NCBI GenBank assembly: GCA_902787575.1 | Contig: CADAGX010000018.1 | Span: forward strand, 1-50,617 | Reading direction: 5' to 3' | Length of the DNA: 50,617 nt | Origin: an uncultured Bacteroidales bacterium | GTDB lineage: Bacteria > Bacteroidota > Bacteroidia > Bacteroidales > Bacteroidaceae | Part shown: piece after piece, positions 2,692 through 18,986 of the stretch | Numbering within the stretch: the first letter of the stretch is position 1 | How the letters are laid out: each line of letters opens with the position of its first letter | Made by a program: the position numbers and the translations under genes | Notes under the pieces: model-generated | Seen by the model: the letters and a program-made list of their open reading frames with translations, nothing else | Databases searched by the model: none | Told to the model about the DNA's origin: nothing

Positions 2692-3969
2692 TTACTTCAC
2701 TCTCAGTTTCTGTCCGGCTCTGATGTTTGTTCCTTTTATTCCGTTAAGGCGTTGCAGGCGTGCAACTGTGGTATGGTTGCGGCGGGCTATGGCTCCCAGT
2801 GTGTCGCCACTGCGCACGGTTACAGATGAACCGCGGCCTCTACTCCCGCTACGGCTGGCTGCCTTGTGTTCCTCTCTGCTGGCCACTTCCACCACTCGGC
2901 GGTTAGGCTTGAGCGTCTCGGGCCGACAAGCATAGACCGAGTCTTCAGCTTCAAGGAATGTGCTGATGGCTGCAGTGGGCATTCGCAGTGTGCAGGGGCG
3001 GCTGTCAGCGGGGATAAGCGTGGTGCGATACTGCGGGTTGAGTGCGCGCAGTTCGTCTATGTCTGTCTTGCAGACTGCTGCAATCTGTTCCATATAGACG
3101 CTGCGGTGCAGTTGTAGGGTGTCGGTGCCGGCCGGCAGGACGGTCTGTACGGGGCAGATGTTATGGTCGCAGTAGTAATTCATTATATAATTGGCTGCAA
3201 TGAAGGCCGGCACGTAGCCTTGTGTCTCGCGGGGCAGATAGGGCCAGATTTTCCAGTAGTCGGTCTGTCCGCCAGAGCGCTTGATGGCCCGGCTCACGTT
3301 TCCCGGCCCACAGTTGTAGCTGGCAATGACGAGCGTCCAGTCGTGGAAGATTTCGTATAGGTCACGCAAATATCGAGCTGCGGCGTAGCTGGCTTTTATG
3401 GGGTCGCGGCGGTCGTCTATGAGGCTCGTCACCTCCAGCCCGTACTGCTTTCCGGTGGTAATCATAAACTGCCAGAGTCCGGCGGCACCGGCGCGGCTGG
3501 TGGCTCCGGGATTGAGCGCGCTTTCGATTACAGGAAGGTACTTCAGTTCGAGCGGCAGCTGGTAGCTCTCTAGCGCGTCCTCAAAGAGCGGAGTGTAGAA
3601 GTTGCTTGCTCCAAGCATTATGCTCACCGAGCGGCGCAGTCGTCCGCTGTATTGGTCTATGTATCGTGCCACCACTTCGTTGTAAGGCATCTCTATTACG
3701 TTTGGCAAGCGGCTGAGACGCTGGATGTAAACTTCTGCCGGGAAGGTGGGATTCTCGCCTGTTGAGTGGCAACTGTCATCGTTCGAGAGGAACTTGCGGA
3801 CGTTCCATTCGTGCAGCAGGCTGTCGATCTCTCTGGGCTGCATTCCCTCAGGCAGCACCAGCGAATCTTCGGCCAACGCCTCCTCCTCCTCGGTCTGCGC
3901 GCTCATTGGCTGGCTACTCGTAAAGAGGAAGCCCAGTGCCGCGAGTGCTATGTATAGGTGTTTTCTCAT
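2692..3969 (-). CDS. mltD: MltD-like lytic transglycosylase with LysM
   Basis: Secreted peptidoglycan lytic transglycosylase of 425 residues that cleaves the MurNAc-GlcNAc bond to form 1,6-anhydroMurNAc. A signal peptide covers residues 1-25 (hydrophobic core ALAALGFLFTSS, ending SAQ). The SLT domain (about 120-290) carries the catalytic Glu149 in PVIESALNP, the GLWQF motif, and the ASYNCGPGNV motif typical of family 1 SLTs. One LysM domain lies at the C-terminus (about 378-425; SGDTLGAIARR). It sits between DUF5683 (21 nt upstream) and rsh, the order usual in Bacteroides relatives. Most MltD proteins have two or more LysM repeats; only one is seen here. Confidence 0.93.
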   Translation of the reverse strand: MRKHLYIALAALGFLFTSSQPMSAQTEEEEALAEDSLVLPEGMQPREIDSLLHEWNVRKFLSNDDSCHSTGENPTFPAEVYIQRLSRLPNVIEMPYNEVVARYIDQYSGRLRRSVSIMLGASNFYTPLFEDALESYQLPLELKYLPVIESALNPGATSRAGAAGLWQFMITTGKQYGLEVTSLIDDRRDPIKASYAAARYLRDLYEIFHDWTLVIASYNCGPGNVSRAIKRSGGQTDYWKIWPYLPRETQGYVPAFIAANYIMNYYCDHNICPVQTVLPAGTDTLQLHRSVYMEQIAAVCKTDIDELRALNPQYRTTLIPADSRPCTLRMPTAAISTFLEAEDSVYACRPETLKPNRRVVEVASREEHKAASRSGSRGRGSSVTVRSGDTLGAIARRNHTTVARLQRLNGIKGTNIRAGQKLRVK

Positions 3970-5619: not shown

Positions 5620-6385
5620 ACCGTTCACTTTTCTTTATGATTTCCTCGGCCAACTTCAGGTGAGTCTTGGCTCCCACCGAGTCGGCATCATATAGCAGCA
5701 CGGGCATACCGTGCCCAGGTGCCTCGCTCAGCTTCACGTTTCGCGGTATTACGGTATTGAAAACCAGTTCTCGGAAGTGCCGCTTTACGTCGCTGTACAC
5801 TTGGTTGGCCAGTCGGAGGCGGCTGTCGTACATGGTCAGCAGGAAGCCTTCGATAGAGAGCGTCGGATTGAGCTTCGACTTCACAATCTTTATCGTATTT
5901 AGCAGTTTGCTGATGCCCTCCAGCGCAAAGTATTCGCACTGCACCGGAATGATTACGCTGTCTGCAGCCGTCAGTGCGTTTACTGTGATGAGTCCAAGGC
6001 TCGGGCTGCAGTCAATGAGTATGTAGTCGTACTCCTCGTTCACCGTCTTCAGCAGTTCCTTCAGCACTGTCTCGCGGCCTTTAGCTGAGAGCATCTCTAT
6101 TTCGGCTCCCACCAAGTCGATATGCGAGGGCACAATGTCCAGCCCCTCTATGTCTGTAGTGTAGATGGCCTCGCGGATGTCTAAGTGGTTTACCAGCACA
6201 TGGTAGAGCGAACACTCCACCTGCTTCACATCTACTCCCATTCCCGACGAGGCGTTTGCCTGCGGGTCGGCATCAATGAGCAGCACTCTCTTCTCCAGCG
6301 TGGCCAGCGAGGCCGAGAGGTTCATGCTGGTGGTGGTCTTTCCCACTCCTCCCTTCTGATTGGCTATGGCTATAATCTTGCTCAT
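5618..6385 (-). CDS. parA: ParA/Soj family chromosome partitioning ATPase
   Basis: Deviant Walker ATPase of the ParABS system, 255 residues. The Walker A motif KGGVGKTT is at residues 11-18, the A' motif [10 protein letters not shown] follows, and LIDCSPSLG is the Walker B region. An in-frame ATG 25 codons upstream (6460) was rejected: the promoter box TACCTTTG (6430-6437) lies inside that extension, so the transcript starts after it, and ParA proteins begin just before the A-x-x-x-KGG strand. First gene of the minus-strand operon, divergent from surE. Confidence 0.96.
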
Positions 6386-7491: not shown

Positions 7492-8631
7492 ATGAAATAT
7501 TACTTCATAGTTGGCGAAGCCAGTGGCGACTTGCATGCCAGCCATCTTATGGCGGCATTGCGTAGCGAAGACCCCGAGGCCGAGTTCCGCTTCTTTGGCG
7601 GCGACCTCATGGCGGCTCAGGGTGGTACGCTCGTCCGCCACTATCGAGAGATAGCCTATATGGGCGTCGTGCCCGTGCTGCTACATGCCCGCACCATCCT
7701 GCGAGCCCTTTCCCATTGCCAGCGCGACATCATAGCATGGCAGCCCGATGTGGTTGTGCTGGTGGACTATCCCGGCTTCAACCTCCGCATGGCACGCTTC
7801 GTGAAGCAGCATACCCAGATTCCAGTTTTCTACTATATTGCTCCCAAGATATGGGCATGGAAGGAGCGTCGCATCCGCAGTATTCGCAGTTATGTGGATG
7901 AGCTTTTCAGCATCCTGCCATTCGAGGTGGACTTCTTCGAGAGGAAGCATCATTATCCCATACACTATGTGGGCAATCCCACTGTAGATGAAGTGGCTGC
8001 CCATCGACCTACGTCTTCCACTTGGCAGAAGCCTGTCATCGCCTTGTTGCCTGGCAGCCGCGAGCACGAGATACGCGAAAATCTGCCCCGTATGCTGGAG
8101 GCGGCAGCGCCCTACGCTCGCGACTATCAACTCCTTGTGGCTCAAGCGCCCAGTCAGCCCGACTCTGTCTATAATCCCATCATCGAGAACTGTCGTCGTC
8201 GCTTCTTTTCCGATGTATTGATGCCGGTGGGACTGCAGTCGGGCGGCACGTTCCAGCTGCTCTCCTGCGCCACCGCGGCTCTTGTGGCCAGTGGCACTGC
8301 CACGCTGGAGACAGCCCTATTGCGCGTTCCTCAGGTTGTGTGCTACCGCATGCAGCCTGCTTGGCTCGTCTCGCTGCTGCGTCCGCTCGTGTTGCGCATT
8401 CCCTACGTCTCGCTTGTCAATCTTGTGGCCGGCCGCCAAGTGGTGCCCGAGCTGATAGCTGCGCAGATGACCGCCGCAAATGTTCGCCGCCATCTCGCTG
8501 CAATCCTGCCCGGAGCCTCCGATCGAGAGTCGCAGTTGCAGGGCTACGAAGACGTGGCGCGCCTATTGGGCCAGCCCGGAGCGCCTCAGCGAGCTGCCCG
8601 CCTGATGGTGTCATTGTTGCGTCACGAGTAG
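7492..8631 (+). CDS. lpxB: Lipid-A-disaccharide synthase
   Basis: GT19 glycosyltransferase that joins UDP-2,3-diacylglucosamine and lipid X to make the lipid A disaccharide at the inner membrane; 379 residues, normal length. Family hallmarks are the N-terminal [13 protein letters not shown] segment, [10 protein letters not shown], the [14 protein letters not shown] stretch and [10 protein letters not shown]. The C-terminal half has [14 protein letters not shown] (donor nucleotide binding). It follows surE by 85 nt of repeat sequence, the pairing common in Bacteroides relatives; no separate promoter box is obvious in that gap. Confidence 0.96.
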
Positions 8632-14176: not shown

Positions 14177-15136
14177 TTACTGAAAGGCTTCCACCTCGGC
14201 GCAGAACTGGCCGTAGATGTAGTGAACGAGCAGTTTGCCTCGGTGCCCTTGCTCGGTAAGCAGTTGTGCCACGTGGCCCATGGTCATGCGCCAGTTCACT
14301 TCCACGCATGGACAAATGCCGCCGTCGGCCGTCAGCATCATGTCCACTCCCAGGGGGCCGCGGTAGGCGTAGCGCGTAAGGTGTTGCTCCCACCAGTGGC
14401 GCACGTCTGCGAGCACCTGTGGCGGTACGTACTGCATGAGCCACGAGAGTTTCTCGCCTTCGGATGCAAGCCATGAACCGGTGTAGGCTCCCGATTCGTT
14501 GGTATGGAAGAGTGAGAGTCCGCGGTACTCCACACCGCCAGCTCCGTCGAGCCGGAAGAGCATGCCGAAGTCGGCCAACTTGTCGAGCCGGCTCTCGGCC
14601 ACCACGCTGCCCTGCTGCCGTAGGATGCGGCGGCACCATGCGCGTGCAGCAGGCTGCCCCGAAGGCATCAGACCGCGTCCGCTGCTGCTCCATGGGGATT
14701 TGAAGAGGCGTTCGGAGGTGTCTGAGGCGGGGAAGAGCTGGTCTATCGACTGGCAGAGAAGGCTCTCTCCGCGCAACAACGGTCCGCAGAGTCCGTCGGC
14801 CTGCTGTTGATGCAGAGCCTCCACAGCTGTGCGGCGGTGAGAGAGTTGGCGCAGGCGCTCCAGTGCGTCGGCTGAGGGAAGGAAAGACGCGTCCACGCCT
14901 GCCTGCGAGAGTTGATGCACGAGTGCCGGACTCCATCCCCATGGGCAGATTTCGTCGCCTGGACTAAGGTGGAGCGGCGAGGTGCCGTCCCAGACCACGT
15001 CGTCCTCTTCTGCCCACCACTTGGGCAGCCACGAGAGGTCGGAACGCATCTGGCGAATGAGGGCTGGAGGCGTGTAGCCCGGACGTCCGTCTGCGAGTGC
15101 CATGTCGTTCTCGGGATTGAAAACATAGACTTTCAT
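14177..15136 (-). CDS. Uncharacterised ATP-grasp-like protein
   Basis: 319 residues, cytoplasmic, no signal or membrane segment. N-terminus [18 protein letters not shown] do not recognise a named family, but the layout is ATP-grasp-like: a lysine with a Gly/Ser-rich loop [12 protein letters not shown] (146-157), and near the C-terminus an acidic-Asn motif [14 protein letters not shown] (about 286-299) where ATP-grasp enzymes place the metal-binding E-x-N. Such enzymes ligate a carboxylate to an amine or thiol using ATP; no substrate can be named. The frame stays open to 15331, but the promoter box TAACTTTG ends 5 nt before the ATG at 15134-15136, so the upstream frame is promoter sequence. 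Divergent from the large fusion gene, with which it may work. Confidence 0.7.
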
Positions 15137-15141
15137 GAGGG

Positions 15142-15149
15142 CAAAGTTA
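15142..15149 (-). promoter_or_regulatory. Proximal promoter of the ATP-grasp-like gene
   Basis: -7 box TAACTTTG on the minus strand, preceded by a TTTTTTG -33 region about 19 nt upstream. The box ends only 5 nt from the ATG, so the mRNA should be leaderless or nearly so. Confidence 0.75.
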
Positions 15150-15216
15150 CGAATAAACGAGAGAAAAGCAAAAAATAAATTTGCTTTTCCGAGTGCAAGT
15201 AACCTCGGCTGTAAGC

Positions 15217-15224
15217 CAAAGTTA
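15217..15224 (-). promoter_or_regulatory. Distal copy of the ATP-grasp-like promoter
   Basis: A second TAACTTTG, identical in context to the proximal box, 75 bp further upstream. It would give an mRNA with a leader of about 75 nt. Confidence 0.65.
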
Positions 15225-15290
15225 CGAATAAACGAGAGAAAAGCAAAAAAAAGATTTGCCTTTCCGAACATGAATCTCGGTTTTTTGCCG

Positions 15291-15298
15291 TACATTTG
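15291..15298 (+). promoter_or_regulatory. -7 box of the fusion gene
   Basis: TACATTTG matches TAnnTTTG and ends 22 nt before the ATG at 15321. No clear -33 element. Confidence 0.65.
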
Positions 15299-15320
15299 TA
15301 CACACACAGAAACAATCTCC

Positions 15321-18300
15321 ATGACACACATGCAGAAGAAAAGTATGATAGACTGCTTTATTCCCTATGAGAGCGACTCGCAGGCGAGCGAGACGCTGTG
15401 CCAGTTGCGTGCCGACGAGCATGTGGGTGCAGTTCATCTGTTGCGCGAGGGCGGTGCTTGCAAAAGCTCGGTGCTGCGTTGGATAGCCTCGCGTGCGCAT
15501 GCTCCTTATATATTGCTCTATACGAAGTTGGAGGCGTTGCAGCTGGGCTTTCACGCCCTAAGGCGTATGCTTACGGTGGCTGCCGACAGCGGAGCACTGA
15601 TGCTCTATGCAGACCACTATGTGCTCTCGCCTGATGGTAAGCGAACGGCCAAGCCGCTGACGGACTACCAGTTGGGTAGCGTGCGTGACGACTTCGAGAT
15701 GGGTTCGCTCTTGCTTATTCACACCGAGACGCTACGCCAATATGTGGCCTCGCAGCCGCACTGCTACCGCTACGCTGCACTCTACGACTTGCGCCTCTTC
15801 GTGAGCCGCCGGATGCTGCCTGTGCACCTCGATGAGTTTCTTTATACCGAGGTGGAGCGCGACACGCGACTGAGCGGACAGAAGCAGTTCGACTATGTAG
15901 ACCCACGCAACCGCAGCCGACAGCTCGAGATGGAGCGCGCCTGCACCCGTCACCTGCTTGCCATTGGAGCCTATCTGAAGGGCAAGGACGTGGAGGAACC
16001 GCAGCTTCAGGAGGGCGACTTCCCGGTGGAGGCCACCGTGGTCATTCCGGTGCGCAATAGAGTGCGTACCATAGAGGATGCCATACGTAGTGTGCTGGAG
16101 CAGCAGACCTCGTTTGACTTCAACCTCATGGTGGTGGACAACCTGAGCACAGACGGGACTACCGAAATCGTGCGACGCTTCACGGACAATCCTCGCGTGC
16201 TGCATCTCATACCCGAACGCGACGATTTGGGCATAGGCGGATGCTGGAACATGGCCGTGCACGATGCGAGGGTAGGGCGCTTCGTGGTGCAGCTCGACAG
16301 CGATGACCTCTACAGCAGTCCCCACACGCTGCAGCGTATCGTGGACTGCTTCTATCGGCAAAGAGCGGCTATGGTCATCGGTTCGTATCGCATGTGCGAC
16401 TTCCAACTGCAGACGCTGCCGCCCGGACTGATAGACCACAGCGAGTGGACAGACCGCAACGGACGCAACAACGCACTGCGCATAAATGGGCTGGGAGCGC
16501 CACGCGCCTTCTTTACCCCTCTGCTGCGCGAAATGCAGATACCCAATACGAGTTACGGAGAGGACTATGCACTGGGACTGATGTTCAGTCGCCGCTTCCG
16601 CATTGGACGCATCTTCGACGAGCTCTACCTTTGCCGACGATGGGAGGGCAACAGCGACGCCGCGCTCAGCCAAGAGCGCATAAACCGCAACAACTGGTAT
16701 AAGGACCACTTGCGCACGCTCGAAATCAAGGCTCGCCAGAGGCTGAACGCCGAGAGACGGCAGTCGCTCTCGGAGGAGGAGGTGAGCCGCTTCTTCACCG
16801 ACGAGATGGAGCAGTGGCCGGAGGCTGCACAGCGGTACGCCGACCTGCGGGCGCAAGTGCAGACACGGCAGTTGCTCGAGGACGGATATATGCTGCAGGC
16901 GCAGTGGAACCCATCGCGAATCGTCAGCACCGGAGCGCGCACCGATGCTGCCTCAGTGGCCGCACGCCCCTGCTTTCTGTGCCAGAAGAACCGACCCGAG
17001 GCACAGCACTTCCTGTCCATCGAAGGACAGTATCAGCTGCTCGTGAATCCGTTCCCAATACTGCCGCAGCACTTTACCATTCCGACGCGTTGCCACACCG
17101 ACCAACACATCTACAGCCACTTCCAGACGCTGCGACGACTGGCATGGCAGCTGCCCGAGCACATTGTCTTCTACAATGGGCCGCAGTGCGGAGCTTCGTG
17201 CCCCGACCACATGCACCTGCAGGCTGGCAGCCGAGGCATTGTGCCGTTGGAACGCGACTGGGCACAATACGAACAACGCCTCGAACGTATTCTTCCCTCG
17301 GCCGATGGAGGTGAGGACCGTCGCTTCGGGCTCTTCGTGTTGCACGGCTATGCATGCCCTGTGCTGGTGCTCCGCAGTCCGTCGGCTGATGCAGACTTGG
17401 CACTCTGCGAGCGCGTCTATCGCGCACTGCCCGTCTGCGACGGAGAGAGTGAACCGCGGATGAATCTCGTGGCGTGGCGTGGTCGGACTCCCGAGCAAGA
17501 GGATTGTCTGGTGACGTTGCTCTTCCCGCGCCGCAAGCACCGCCCCGACTGCTACACCGCCTCGGGCGAGGGTCGGCTGCTGGTCAGTCCCGGTGCGCTG
17601 GATATGTGCGGCCTGCTCGTCACTCCGCGAGAGGAGGACTTTGGCCGTCTCACACCTCGGTTGGCCGCCGACATCCTTCAAGAGGTGAGTCTCGGGTGGA
17701 TGGATTTGCAATCCGTATTGGCCCAGCTGACAGAGGGGACTCAGCGCAGCGAGCCTGTGCTCAATGTCGGTGTAATGACAGAGCGCCACATCCGCTTCAC
17801 GCTAAACGTACCGTATGCGGCAGACGGAGAGATATTTGTGGGCCCGCAGGAAGCTGAATGCAACGAGGGCATGGTGGTATGGAAGGGACGGCGATTCCGC
17901 AACTTACGCTTTGTGGCACTGCAGGCCGGAGCCACCTTCTGCCTTTCGGATGTAACCATCGGCAAACAGTTCCACTGGGAGCGACGCGAAGTTCAGACCT
18001 TCAGCGGCAACTTGCGCCTCGTGCCGGACGGCAACCAACTGGTGGCAGTGAACGAAGTAAGGGTGGAGGAATATCTGGCCAGCGTGATTTCGAGCGAGAT
18101 GAAGGCTACGGCCAGTCCGGCCTTCCTTCGTGCCTCGGCCGTGGTGTGTCGCAGCTGGCTCTTCGCTCAGCTACAAAAGAAGAATCAGCCAACAGCCAAC
18201 GTCCAACAGCCAACGTCCAACAGCCAAGAGCCAACAGCCGAATACCGCATTCGGTGGTACGACCGCACAGAACACACGCTCTTTGATGTCTGTGCCGACG

Positions 18301-18986
18301 ACCACTGCCAGCGGTATCAGGGTCTGACACGCCTTTCCGATTCGCGCGTGCGGCAAGCAGTGCGCGACACGCGAGGCCTCGTACTTACTGCCGACGGAGA
18401 AGTTTGCGATGCACGCTTCAGCAAGTGCTGCGGCGGGCAGACAAACGAGTTCCGCTACTGCTGGCAGAACTTGCGACCGGCCTACCTCGCTTCGGTTGCC
18501 GACCCATATTGCAGTCAGGCTGATGCTGCCATACTCTCGCGGGTGTTGAATGGCTATGACCGCGAGACGCCTCAGTTCCTCAACTGGCAAGTGGAGTTCA
18601 CTCAACAGGAACTGCACGACTTGCTGCAGGAGCGACTCGGCATCGACTTTGGCAGTATCTTGCGTCTCGAAACGCTGGAACAAGGTCCCGGCGGACACAT
18701 ATCGCAGTTGCGCATCGTCGGCACGCAGCGCCAGTTGGTGCTTGGCAAGGAACTCGAGATACGACGAGCACTCTCGCACAGCCACCTGCTCAGCAGCGCC
18801 TTTACTGTAGAGACGCAAGGCAGTGGCGATGTGCCTGAGAAGTTCGTCCTGCACGGACGCGGCTGGGGACACGGAGTGGGCATGTGTCAGATAGGTGCCG
18901 CCGTAATGGGCGAGCAGGGCTTTGCTTACACAGATATACTGAGCCATTATTTTGCCGCTGCCACCCTGCAGCGACTATACGACTGA
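15321..18986 (+). CDS. Fusion: two GT-A-like domains, DUF4922 (HIT/GalT-like), SpoIID
   Basis: 1221 residues, no signal peptide. Residues 1-230: a degenerate glycosyltransferase-like domain ([20 protein letters not shown], then ADHYV). Residues 238-450: GT2 domain with [10 protein letters not shown] at the start and the metal-binding DSDD at 326-329. Residues 545-800: DUF4922, a HIT/GalT-superfamily domain with CxxC (551, 554) and catalytic H630-M-H632-L-Q634 inside [16 protein letters not shown], as in GDP-hexose or Ap4A phosphorylases. Residues 815-1221: SpoIID/LytB-like domain with catalytic-type Glu926 in SSEM and the C-terminal [15 protein letters not shown] motif. A 7-bp repeat encodes an Asn/Gln/Pro/Thr linker at 955-973 inside it. 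Start 15321 was chosen because the promoter box lies at 15291-15298; the upstream open frame to 15135 is duplicated promoter DNA. Role unknown; sugar-nucleotide turnover plus glycan synthesis and cleavage is suggested. Confidence 0.85.
18186..18241 (+). repeat. Eight 7-bp repeats inside the fusion gene
   Basis: CAGCCAA, CAGCCAA, CGTCCAA, CAGCCAA, CGTCCAA, CAGCCAA, GAGCCAA, CAGCCGA in direct succession, translated in frame into a polar linker in the SpoIID domain. The same heptads occur between genes at 24106-24133. Confidence 0.9.

Follow-up and report, generated by a model that had tools for sequence, protein, structure and literature searches.

A conserved glycosyltransferase-DUF4922-SpoIID fusion of Bacteroidota, without a visible signal peptide and inherited together with an AmpG-type permease

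Why should a SpoIID domain be joined, in a single polypeptide, to enzymes of nucleotide-sugar chemistry? This question is raised by a gene at positions 15321..18986 (+ strand) of contig CADAGX010000018.1 from an uncultured Bacteroidales bacterium (assembly GCA_902787575.1); the window, below, means the whole stretch that was analyzed, 50,617 nucleotides in length. The well-studied SpoIID enzymes are cell-wall cutters acting outside the cytosol, and nucleotide sugars are cytosolic. Comparison with relatives shows that the fusion is conserved, that its parts and AmpG are inherited together, that no signal peptide is visible, and that the catalytic-type residues are intact. To judge from these sequence comparisons, the fused protein, which belongs to gut and rumen bacteria, is probably a cytosolic enzyme assembly salvaging muropeptides that are imported by an AmpG-type permease.

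The frame at 15321-18986 gives an uninterrupted translation of 1221 residues followed by a stop. Pfam and NCBIfam models are matched in the order GT2 glycosyltransferase (GT), DUF4922, and SpoIID. The four-part make-up described in the first-pass annotation (GT-A-like, GT2, DUF4922, and SpoIID in one frame) was borne out by the domain searches, and the motifs DSDD (residues 326-329), HMHLQ (630-634), and GHGVGMCQ (1183-1190) are present as described there. A scan of a genome collection gave 133 confirmed stretches, and the counts on named loci use the best 80 of these 133. GT, DUF4922, and SpoIID lie in a single frame in 71 of the 80 loci, four of which (L069, L071, L075, and L080) are truncated where their contigs stop; the copy in the window and the 11 best-scoring relatives (L001-L012) are all fused. 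Seven loci have GT+DUF4922 plus a separate SpoIID gene. One (L092) has a separate GT and a joined DUF4922+SpoIID, and in another (L088) GT+DUF4922 is closed by a stop 83 bases short of the contig end, with SpoIID out of view. It had been a worry that an assembly or sequencing artefact joined neighboring genes. The genome of the window is incomplete (34 contigs, 86.9% complete), and the parts can be adjacent genes elsewhere; however, because 71 of 80 relatives show the same fused frame, such an origin is excluded, its chance being negligible. Errors seem rather to split the frame, since the split loci L084 and L192 are nearly identical to fused rows of the tree described below. The fusion is genuine and conserved among relatives. 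The first-pass annotation had also considered that the orthologues might be split in all relatives. This holds for other Bacteroidota families, in which each part has a gene of its own, commonly though not invariably adjacent to the others and in several families next to ampG; it does not hold for the window's genus and near kin, where they are fused.

The N-terminal domain (residues 9-230; window 15345..16010, +) was compared by hhalign with the protein's own GT2 domain. Residues 1-230 have no sequence match in Pfam or PDB, and their profile matched the GT2 domain with an E value of 3.4e-4 and a probability of 38% over 180 columns. A GT-A-like nature is plausible on this weak signal, and, because the profile resembles the protein's own GT2 domain, a tandem GT-A arrangement at the N-terminus is likely. 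Residue conservation was counted on sequences covering at least 85% of a domain, from loci of at least 4,500 bases (n = 106, 115, and 106 for the GT, DUF4922, and SpoIID parts), the others being dropped. Asp98 is kept in 104 of 106 sequences and Asp123 in 105 of 106. The GT2 domain (residues 231-478; window 16011..16754, +) belongs to its family by the PF00535 match at 239-362 (E 3.7e-18; 66.4 bits, cut-off 23.3), a DxD motif, and the acceptor-side ED (414-415). Its best solved relatives are those of chondroitin synthase (2z86/2z87). Asp326, Asp328, and Asp329 of the DSDD motif, Glu414, Asp415, and Arg439, Arg440, and Trp441 of the RRW motif (439-441) are invariant in all 106 sequences.

The DUF4922 region (residues 482-803; window 16764..17729, +) contains the Pfam core at 491-636, where PF16269 is matched with an E value of 7.9e-59 (198.2 bits, cut-off 23.6), so that it is a member of this family. 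The nearest solved relative is yeast Ap4A phosphorylase 2 (4i5t), with an E value of 5.9e-5 with profile A1 and 7.7e-4 with the DUF4922 domain alone. In common with the Ap4A phosphorylase/GalT branch of the HIT superfamily, HxHxQ lies inside a similar aligned stretch; His630 and His632 are present in 115 of 115 sequences and Gln634 in 114. A CxxC (CFLC, 551-554) precedes HxHxQ, presumably as in GalT. Unlike Ap4A phosphorylase itself, the domain falls below the Pfam Ap4A_phos_N cut-off (22.8 vs 23.1 bits). An internal duplication within DUF4922 was considered and gave no signal (hhalign E 0.052 over 9 columns). Literature searches on DUF4922, with most subscription journals outside their reach, turned up only plant GDP-L-galactose phosphorylase genes. 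In one genome (G087:C140), a second copy of DUF4922 is in two pieces, 5980-6222 and 8040-8270, about 1.8 kb apart, in frames of 113 and 248 residues, and is adjoined by a second GT copy with one internal stop. This second DUF4922 looks like a decayed or interrupted duplicate.

The SpoIID domain (residues 804-1221; window 17730..18983, +) belongs to the SpoIID/LytB family by its matches to TIGR02669 at 909-1218 (E 5.6e-46; 157.6 bits, cut-off 83.3) and PF08486 at 905-1023 (E 7e-21; 75.1 bits, cut-off 23). It stays below the threshold of the equivalog spore_II_D (116.1 vs 234.75 bits). With profile A1, it matched 4rwr with an E value of 3.8e-28; we take this structure to be from B. anthracis, and 5i1t/5txu to be from C. 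difficile. Glu926, His985, Cys991, His995, Cys996, His1184, Cys1189, and Gln1190 are invariant in all 106 sequences. Glu926 is aligned with Glu101 of C. difficile SpoIID, and a catalytic-type Glu and the GHG motif are thus both present. According to the accessible part of the C. difficile study (PMC6221140), Glu101 is catalytic, zinc is bound by His134, Cys140, His145, and Cys146, and the enzyme is inactive in vitro without Glu101, Cys140, or His145. In our own reading by motif spacing, Cys991 would correspond to Cys140 and the His/Cys set to the zinc site; the spacing, compared without a computed alignment, is H-x5-C-x3-HC in the fused protein and H-x5-C-x4-HC in C. difficile SpoIID. The model match, the catalytic-type Glu, the HGxGM motif, and the zinc-site-like His/Cys set are shared with the SpoIID/LytB lytic transglycosylases. 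The domain differs from the known members in the extra invariant cysteines Cys1037, Cys1064, and Cys1189, in the lack of a signal peptide, and in being fused to, or inherited with, nucleotide-sugar enzymes.

The catalytic-type residues are thus invariant or nearly so in all three enzyme parts, which argues for three working enzymes in the fused protein. This lends partial support to one of the two proposals of the first-pass annotation, a protein that makes, phosphorolyses, and cleaves glycans at one site, and speaks against the other, a non-enzymatic SpoIID fold. In a related explanation, SpoIID would be a fold for binding or regulation, sensing muropeptides and directing GT and DUF4922. A cytosolic place would be out of the ordinary for a lytic transglycosylase, and SpoIID is co-inherited with enzymes of a different kind, both of which would suit a sensor. 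However, a domain used for binding alone would not be expected to keep its whole active site, whereas the catalytic-type Glu, the metal-site residues, and the positions of GHG and CQ are unchanged in all 106 sequences; we regard a sensor as quite unlikely.

A degenerate 7-base tandem repeat (CAGCCAA, 7.7 copies, 78% matches) is located within the SpoIID coding region at 18186..18239 (+). It replaces a loop that has ordinary sequence in the 22 relatives printed; the genome carries similar arrays on its contigs C7, C16, and C21. Because 7 bases do not make a whole number of codons, slippage by a single copy would cut off SpoIID and spare GT and DUF4922.

Where would this SpoIID act? The absence of a signal peptide, which the first-pass annotation had remarked on, was confirmed: there is no hydrophobic leader in the first 40 residues of the fusion, as judged by hydropathy and start position only. 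The same frame stays open upstream to 15135, and an upstream ATG would give a protein of 1283 residues. However, the alignments to relatives mostly start at residues 1-10, and for this reason the true start is probably between Met1 and Met9, that is, from 15321 to 15345. A signal peptide hidden upstream was considered and rejected, since the extra 62 residues to 15135 correspond to a repeated intergenic stretch that is absent from relatives. In this stretch (15135-15300), two copies of an approximately 45-base repeat (agttacgaataaacgagagaaaagcaaaaaa...) are recognized by eye, followed by TACATTTG at 15291-15298, which we take to resemble the Bacteroides -7 promoter element.

The separate SpoIID genes of other genomes point to the same place. 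Their called start is at the domain, or a few residues ahead of it, in 20 of 21, which leaves no room for a signal peptide, and the proteins begin like M-x-x-E-P-x-I-x-V-G-I-L. Eight loci with ordinary SpoIID/LytB genes of the same phylum were inspected, and hydrophobic leaders were seen in all six that were scored. The export expected of the SpoIID/LytB class is thus visible neither in the fusion nor in 20 of the 21 split genes, and SpoIID of this type looks cytosolic. The well-studied enzymes act outside the cytosol, and the fused protein might reach the periplasm by an unrecognized route and act there on the sacculus like an ordinary SpoIID. This is very improbable, given the leaderless fusion and the start positions of the split genes, and since GT2 and DUF4922 would need cytosolic nucleotide sugars. 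Literature searches, from which most subscription journals were excluded, gave no title or abstract beginning that dealt with a SpoIID in the cytosol or with this fusion.

The forms are separated in a DUF4922 tree built on 58 of 115 rows. The fused proteins and their split near kin are on one side of a branch (support 99/93), comprising 19 fused rows and the window, seven of GT+DUF4922, and two of DUF4922+SpoIID, whereas all 27 single-gene rows are on the opposite side. Within the fused side, SpoIID seems to have become separate again in a clade of six rows, with some uncertainty about the direction of the change. A few of the splits may be sequencing errors, because L084 and L192 are so close to fused rows. 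Partial fusions with the same domain order occur beyond the genus: GT+DUF4922 in G270 and L161, and DUF4922+SpoIID in G032 and L163. Among the separate genes, the order GT-(GNAT)-DUF4922-SpoIID is found in L157, L158, L159, L160, L162, L178, and L179; SpoIID is upstream of GT and DUF4922 in L153, L154, and L173, and distant in others. With coordinates compared by hand, the distance between GT and DUF4922 is no more than 1 kb in 27 of 36 panel genomes (described below), and that between SpoIID and DUF4922 no more than 5 kb in seven of the 21 non-window genomes that have both in a 148-genome survey. Gene order alone does not always link the three; the trio is tied by fusion and co-occurrence. 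Genes were called as longest open frames and some were missed; the AmpG of the window's genome and the DUF4922 and SpoIID of L156 were seen by genome sequence search only.

The co-occurrence is close. In the 148 phylum genomes, DUF4922 and this type of SpoIID (E<1e-40) are found in an identical set of 22, the window's own among them. In a panel of 79 genomes, 36 with and 43 without DUF4922, GT (E<=1e-20) is present in 35 of the 36 and none of the 43 (Fisher p 1e-21). AmpG, searched with a query from G278, itself one of the 36, is present in all 36 and in eight of the 43 (Fisher p 5e-15). The Fisher tests ignore relatedness, and the 36 positive genomes represent seven families. Within the window's genus, a strong AmpG match (E<1e-60) was obtained in 22 of 25 genomes, including the window's. 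The trio is present at least in part in 22 of the 25; it is missing from G006, G015, and G017, and G009 has the GT part only.

The neighborhood of the trio genes shows the same company. Among 40 loci fetched around them, AmpG is found in 14, a NagK-like kinase in nine, a NagZ-type glycoside hydrolase of family GH3 in six, NamZ in four, and a GNAT acetyltransferase in four; the kinases, GH3, and AmpG do not reach the curated cut-offs set for the NCBIfam equivalogs or subfamily. By hand-compared coordinates, 11 of 36 panel genomes have AmpG no more than about 5 kb from GT or DUF4922, and AmpG lies directly 3' of the fused gene in L067 and L082. In L160 (G278), the order is GT, DUF4922, SpoIID, AmpG, NamZ.

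This order resembles that of the Tannerella forsythia operon Tanf_08345-08385 (GT, second gtf, lytB (SpoIID), ampG, ybbC), which, in the portion of the report available, is a single transcript of xanthan lyase, gtf, gtf, lytB, ampG, ybbC, murT, murK, and murQ (PMC5388701). Judged by gene order, the second gtf (Tanf_08355) is probably DUF4922. The separate T. forsythia genes are annotated as two glycosyltransferases and an amidase enhancer precursor, whereas the window has one polypeptide; in addition, AmpG and NamZ are on other contigs in the window's genome. T. forsythia AmpG imports muropeptides (PMC5388701), namely GlcNAc-anhMurNAc and GlcNAc-MurNAc (PMC7670621), where GlcNAc is N-acetylglucosamine, MurNAc N-acetylmuramic acid, and anhMurNAc its 1,6-anhydro form. 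Growth was restricted on digests consisting mainly of GlcNAc-anhMurNAc-peptides, with an optical density of about 0.8 vs about 1.3 for GlcNAc-MurNAc-peptides, no AnmK is predicted, and the fate of anhMurNAc was left unexplained (PMC7670621). In the accessible parts of these two reports (PMC5388701, PMC7670621), gtf, gtf, and lytB are given no pathway step.

Muropeptide processing by the trio is favored by the company of AmpG, NamZ, and amino-sugar kinases, by the cytosolic place, and by the intact sites. The link to AmpG and peptidoglycan salvage would explain the use of a SpoIID enzyme inside the cell. In the proposed mechanism, the AmpG-type permease would bring peptidoglycan fragments into the cell, and SpoIID would act in the cytosol on the MurNAc side of imported GlcNAc-MurNAc or GlcNAc-anhydroMurNAc. 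DUF4922, as a relative of Ap4A phosphorylase, would transfer a nucleotidyl group by way of a covalent intermediate on histidine, and might in this way convert a sugar phosphate to, or release it from, a nucleoside diphosphate sugar. The tandem GT would add a sugar, or remove one if run backwards, and the fusion would hold the intermediates together.

The same parts might instead serve synthesis: GT and DUF4922 would build a cytosolic or lipid-linked MurNAc/GlcNAc glycan, SpoIID would trim or end its chains, and AmpG would be linked only through later turnover of the product. Outside the genus, conservation is highest in GT (44-60% identity vs about 30-40% for DUF4922), whose closest matches are polysaccharide synthases (chondroitin synthase, TuaG). 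A xanthan lyase is part of the T. forsythia operon, which, in the part of the report available, is called glycosylation-related (PMC5388701). On the other side, the recurrent neighbors that were identified (AmpG, NamZ, NagK-like kinase, GH3, GNAT, and GT4) include an importer and no exporter, a weak argument because only part of the neighbor groups are annotated. We consider synthesis unlikely.

Several observations weigh against cytosolic muropeptide salvage. As to location, the split SpoIID of L153 has a longer called frame, with no clear leader in a crude test, and the hydropathy ranges of split SpoIID (0.59-2.09) and ordinary SpoIID/LytB (1.83-3.07) overlap; because of this overlap, the location argument rests on start position. 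As to the substrate, C. difficile SpoIID, in the accessible part of the report, had no activity on peptidoglycan without SpoIIP (PMC6221140), and a small disaccharide may thus not be the natural substrate of SpoIID. As to linkage, SpoIID is away from DUF4922 in 14 of the 21 non-window genomes, and AmpG occurs in eight of 43 genomes that lack DUF4922. G006 and G017, of the same genus (82 and 85% complete), have AmpG and no trio. In the window's genome, AmpG (contig C3, G000:C3; NamZ is on C12 and MurQ on C15) is on a different contig from the fused gene, so that the link there is one of presence, not neighborhood. Finally, the AmpG-like protein that was scanned scored 174.7 bits vs the curated 350 of the AmpG model.

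The salvage proposed here would differ from Gram-negative recycling of the E. coli type (AmpG, NagZ, AmpD, AnmK, and MurQ). AmpG is shared, since it stands alongside the trio in 36 of 36 panel genomes, whereas the cytosolic NagZ and AnmK of that pathway are not seen as a set in the window's genus. There, AnmK is found in none of 25 genomes, full-length MurQ in six, NamZ in five, and NagZ-type GH3 in two (one query, E<=1e-15), both with leaders by eye; the window's own genome has MurQ, NamZ, and a GH3. At a completeness of 61-92% for the genomes of the genus, chance is an unlikely reason for the lack of AnmK in all 25. Among the NagZ-type proteins printed, a leader was recognized by eye in 18 of 19 (L215 is unclear, and L223 was not printed). 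Because the usual downstream enzymes are scarce in the genus and NagZ-type proteins mostly have leaders, it is probably the trio, and not NagZ and AnmK, that receives the imported disaccharide, and the trio may replace these two enzymes there. In the panel, outside the genus, AnmK is present in 16 of 36 trio genomes (only as a fragment in G256) vs 32 of 43 others, so that strict exclusion between AnmK and the trio is ruled out as a rule. All eight panel genomes with AmpG and without the trio have AnmK (Fisher p 0.005, relatedness ignored). Two observations stand against replacement: G006 and G017 have AmpG and neither the trio nor AnmK, and G263 has a leaderless NagZ-type GH3 of 359 residues (L177, 9525-10601) beside NamZ, AmpG, GT, and DUF4922, with no SpoIID within the fetched stretch.

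A bolder form of muropeptide salvage can be drawn, in which the trio by itself would convert AmpG-imported GlcNAc-anhydroMurNAc all the way to activated MurNAc, with no need of NagZ or AnmK. Cytosolic SpoIID would open the 1,6-anhydro bond by a lytic-transglycosylase reaction with water, phosphate, or a sugar as acceptor, DUF4922 would load the product with a nucleotide, and the tandem GT would handle GlcNAc. This extension is doubtful, in view of the AnmK kept in those 16 trio genomes, of G006 and G017, and of the leaderless NagZ-type gene of G263.

Several further genes were seen around the trio. In families f29 and f45, GT and DUF4922 have a GNAT acetyltransferase gene between them, as in L157 (10623-11144) and also in L156, L158, and L176, whose contig ends after this gene; the enzyme may re-acetylate an amino sugar. 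In family f49, the gene directly after the cytosolic SpoIID gene is a GT4-type glycosyltransferase in L154 (8173-9282); those of L155 and L171 belong to the same group, and so, probably, does a gene of similar length there in L173. AmpG-type permeases of about 600-630 residues near trio genes (L162, 11389-13179; L164, 10966-12843; L165, 5177-7030) have an extra 150-180 residues or so in the middle of the transporter, an insert to which Pfam gave no name in the two scanned (L162 and L164).

In the window, the divergent neighbor of the fused gene at 14177-15331 (- strand), for which an inner Met is the likely start, has no Pfam family and only a weak match to the amino-acid ligase model LdmS (E 0.019). 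Of the 80 named loci, two were too short to use; among the other 78, a relative of this neighbor adjoins the fused gene directly in 27, in two arrangements, and is no more than four genes away in 30. It was rejected as a member of the system, since it is seen near trio genes only in the genus (L192, and none of L153-L191). An ordinary SLT+LysM lytic transglycosylase gene is located at 2692-3969 (- strand), near parA/parB and a RelA/SpoT gene.

If cytosolic muropeptide salvage by the trio is true, a branch of SpoIID working inside the cell with AmpG would mark out a pathway of peptidoglycan salvage for a sizeable share of Bacteroidota, and DUF4922 would gain a role. The bolder route, if true, would supply the step left unexplained, in the part of the report available, in the growth of T. 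forsythia on GlcNAc-anhMurNAc without a predicted AnmK (PMC7670621). The proposed salvage also makes the use of anhydro-muropeptides by bacteria without AnmK a testable question. Since anhydro-muropeptides matter for immune signaling and beta-lactamase induction, knowledge of how they are consumed would be useful.

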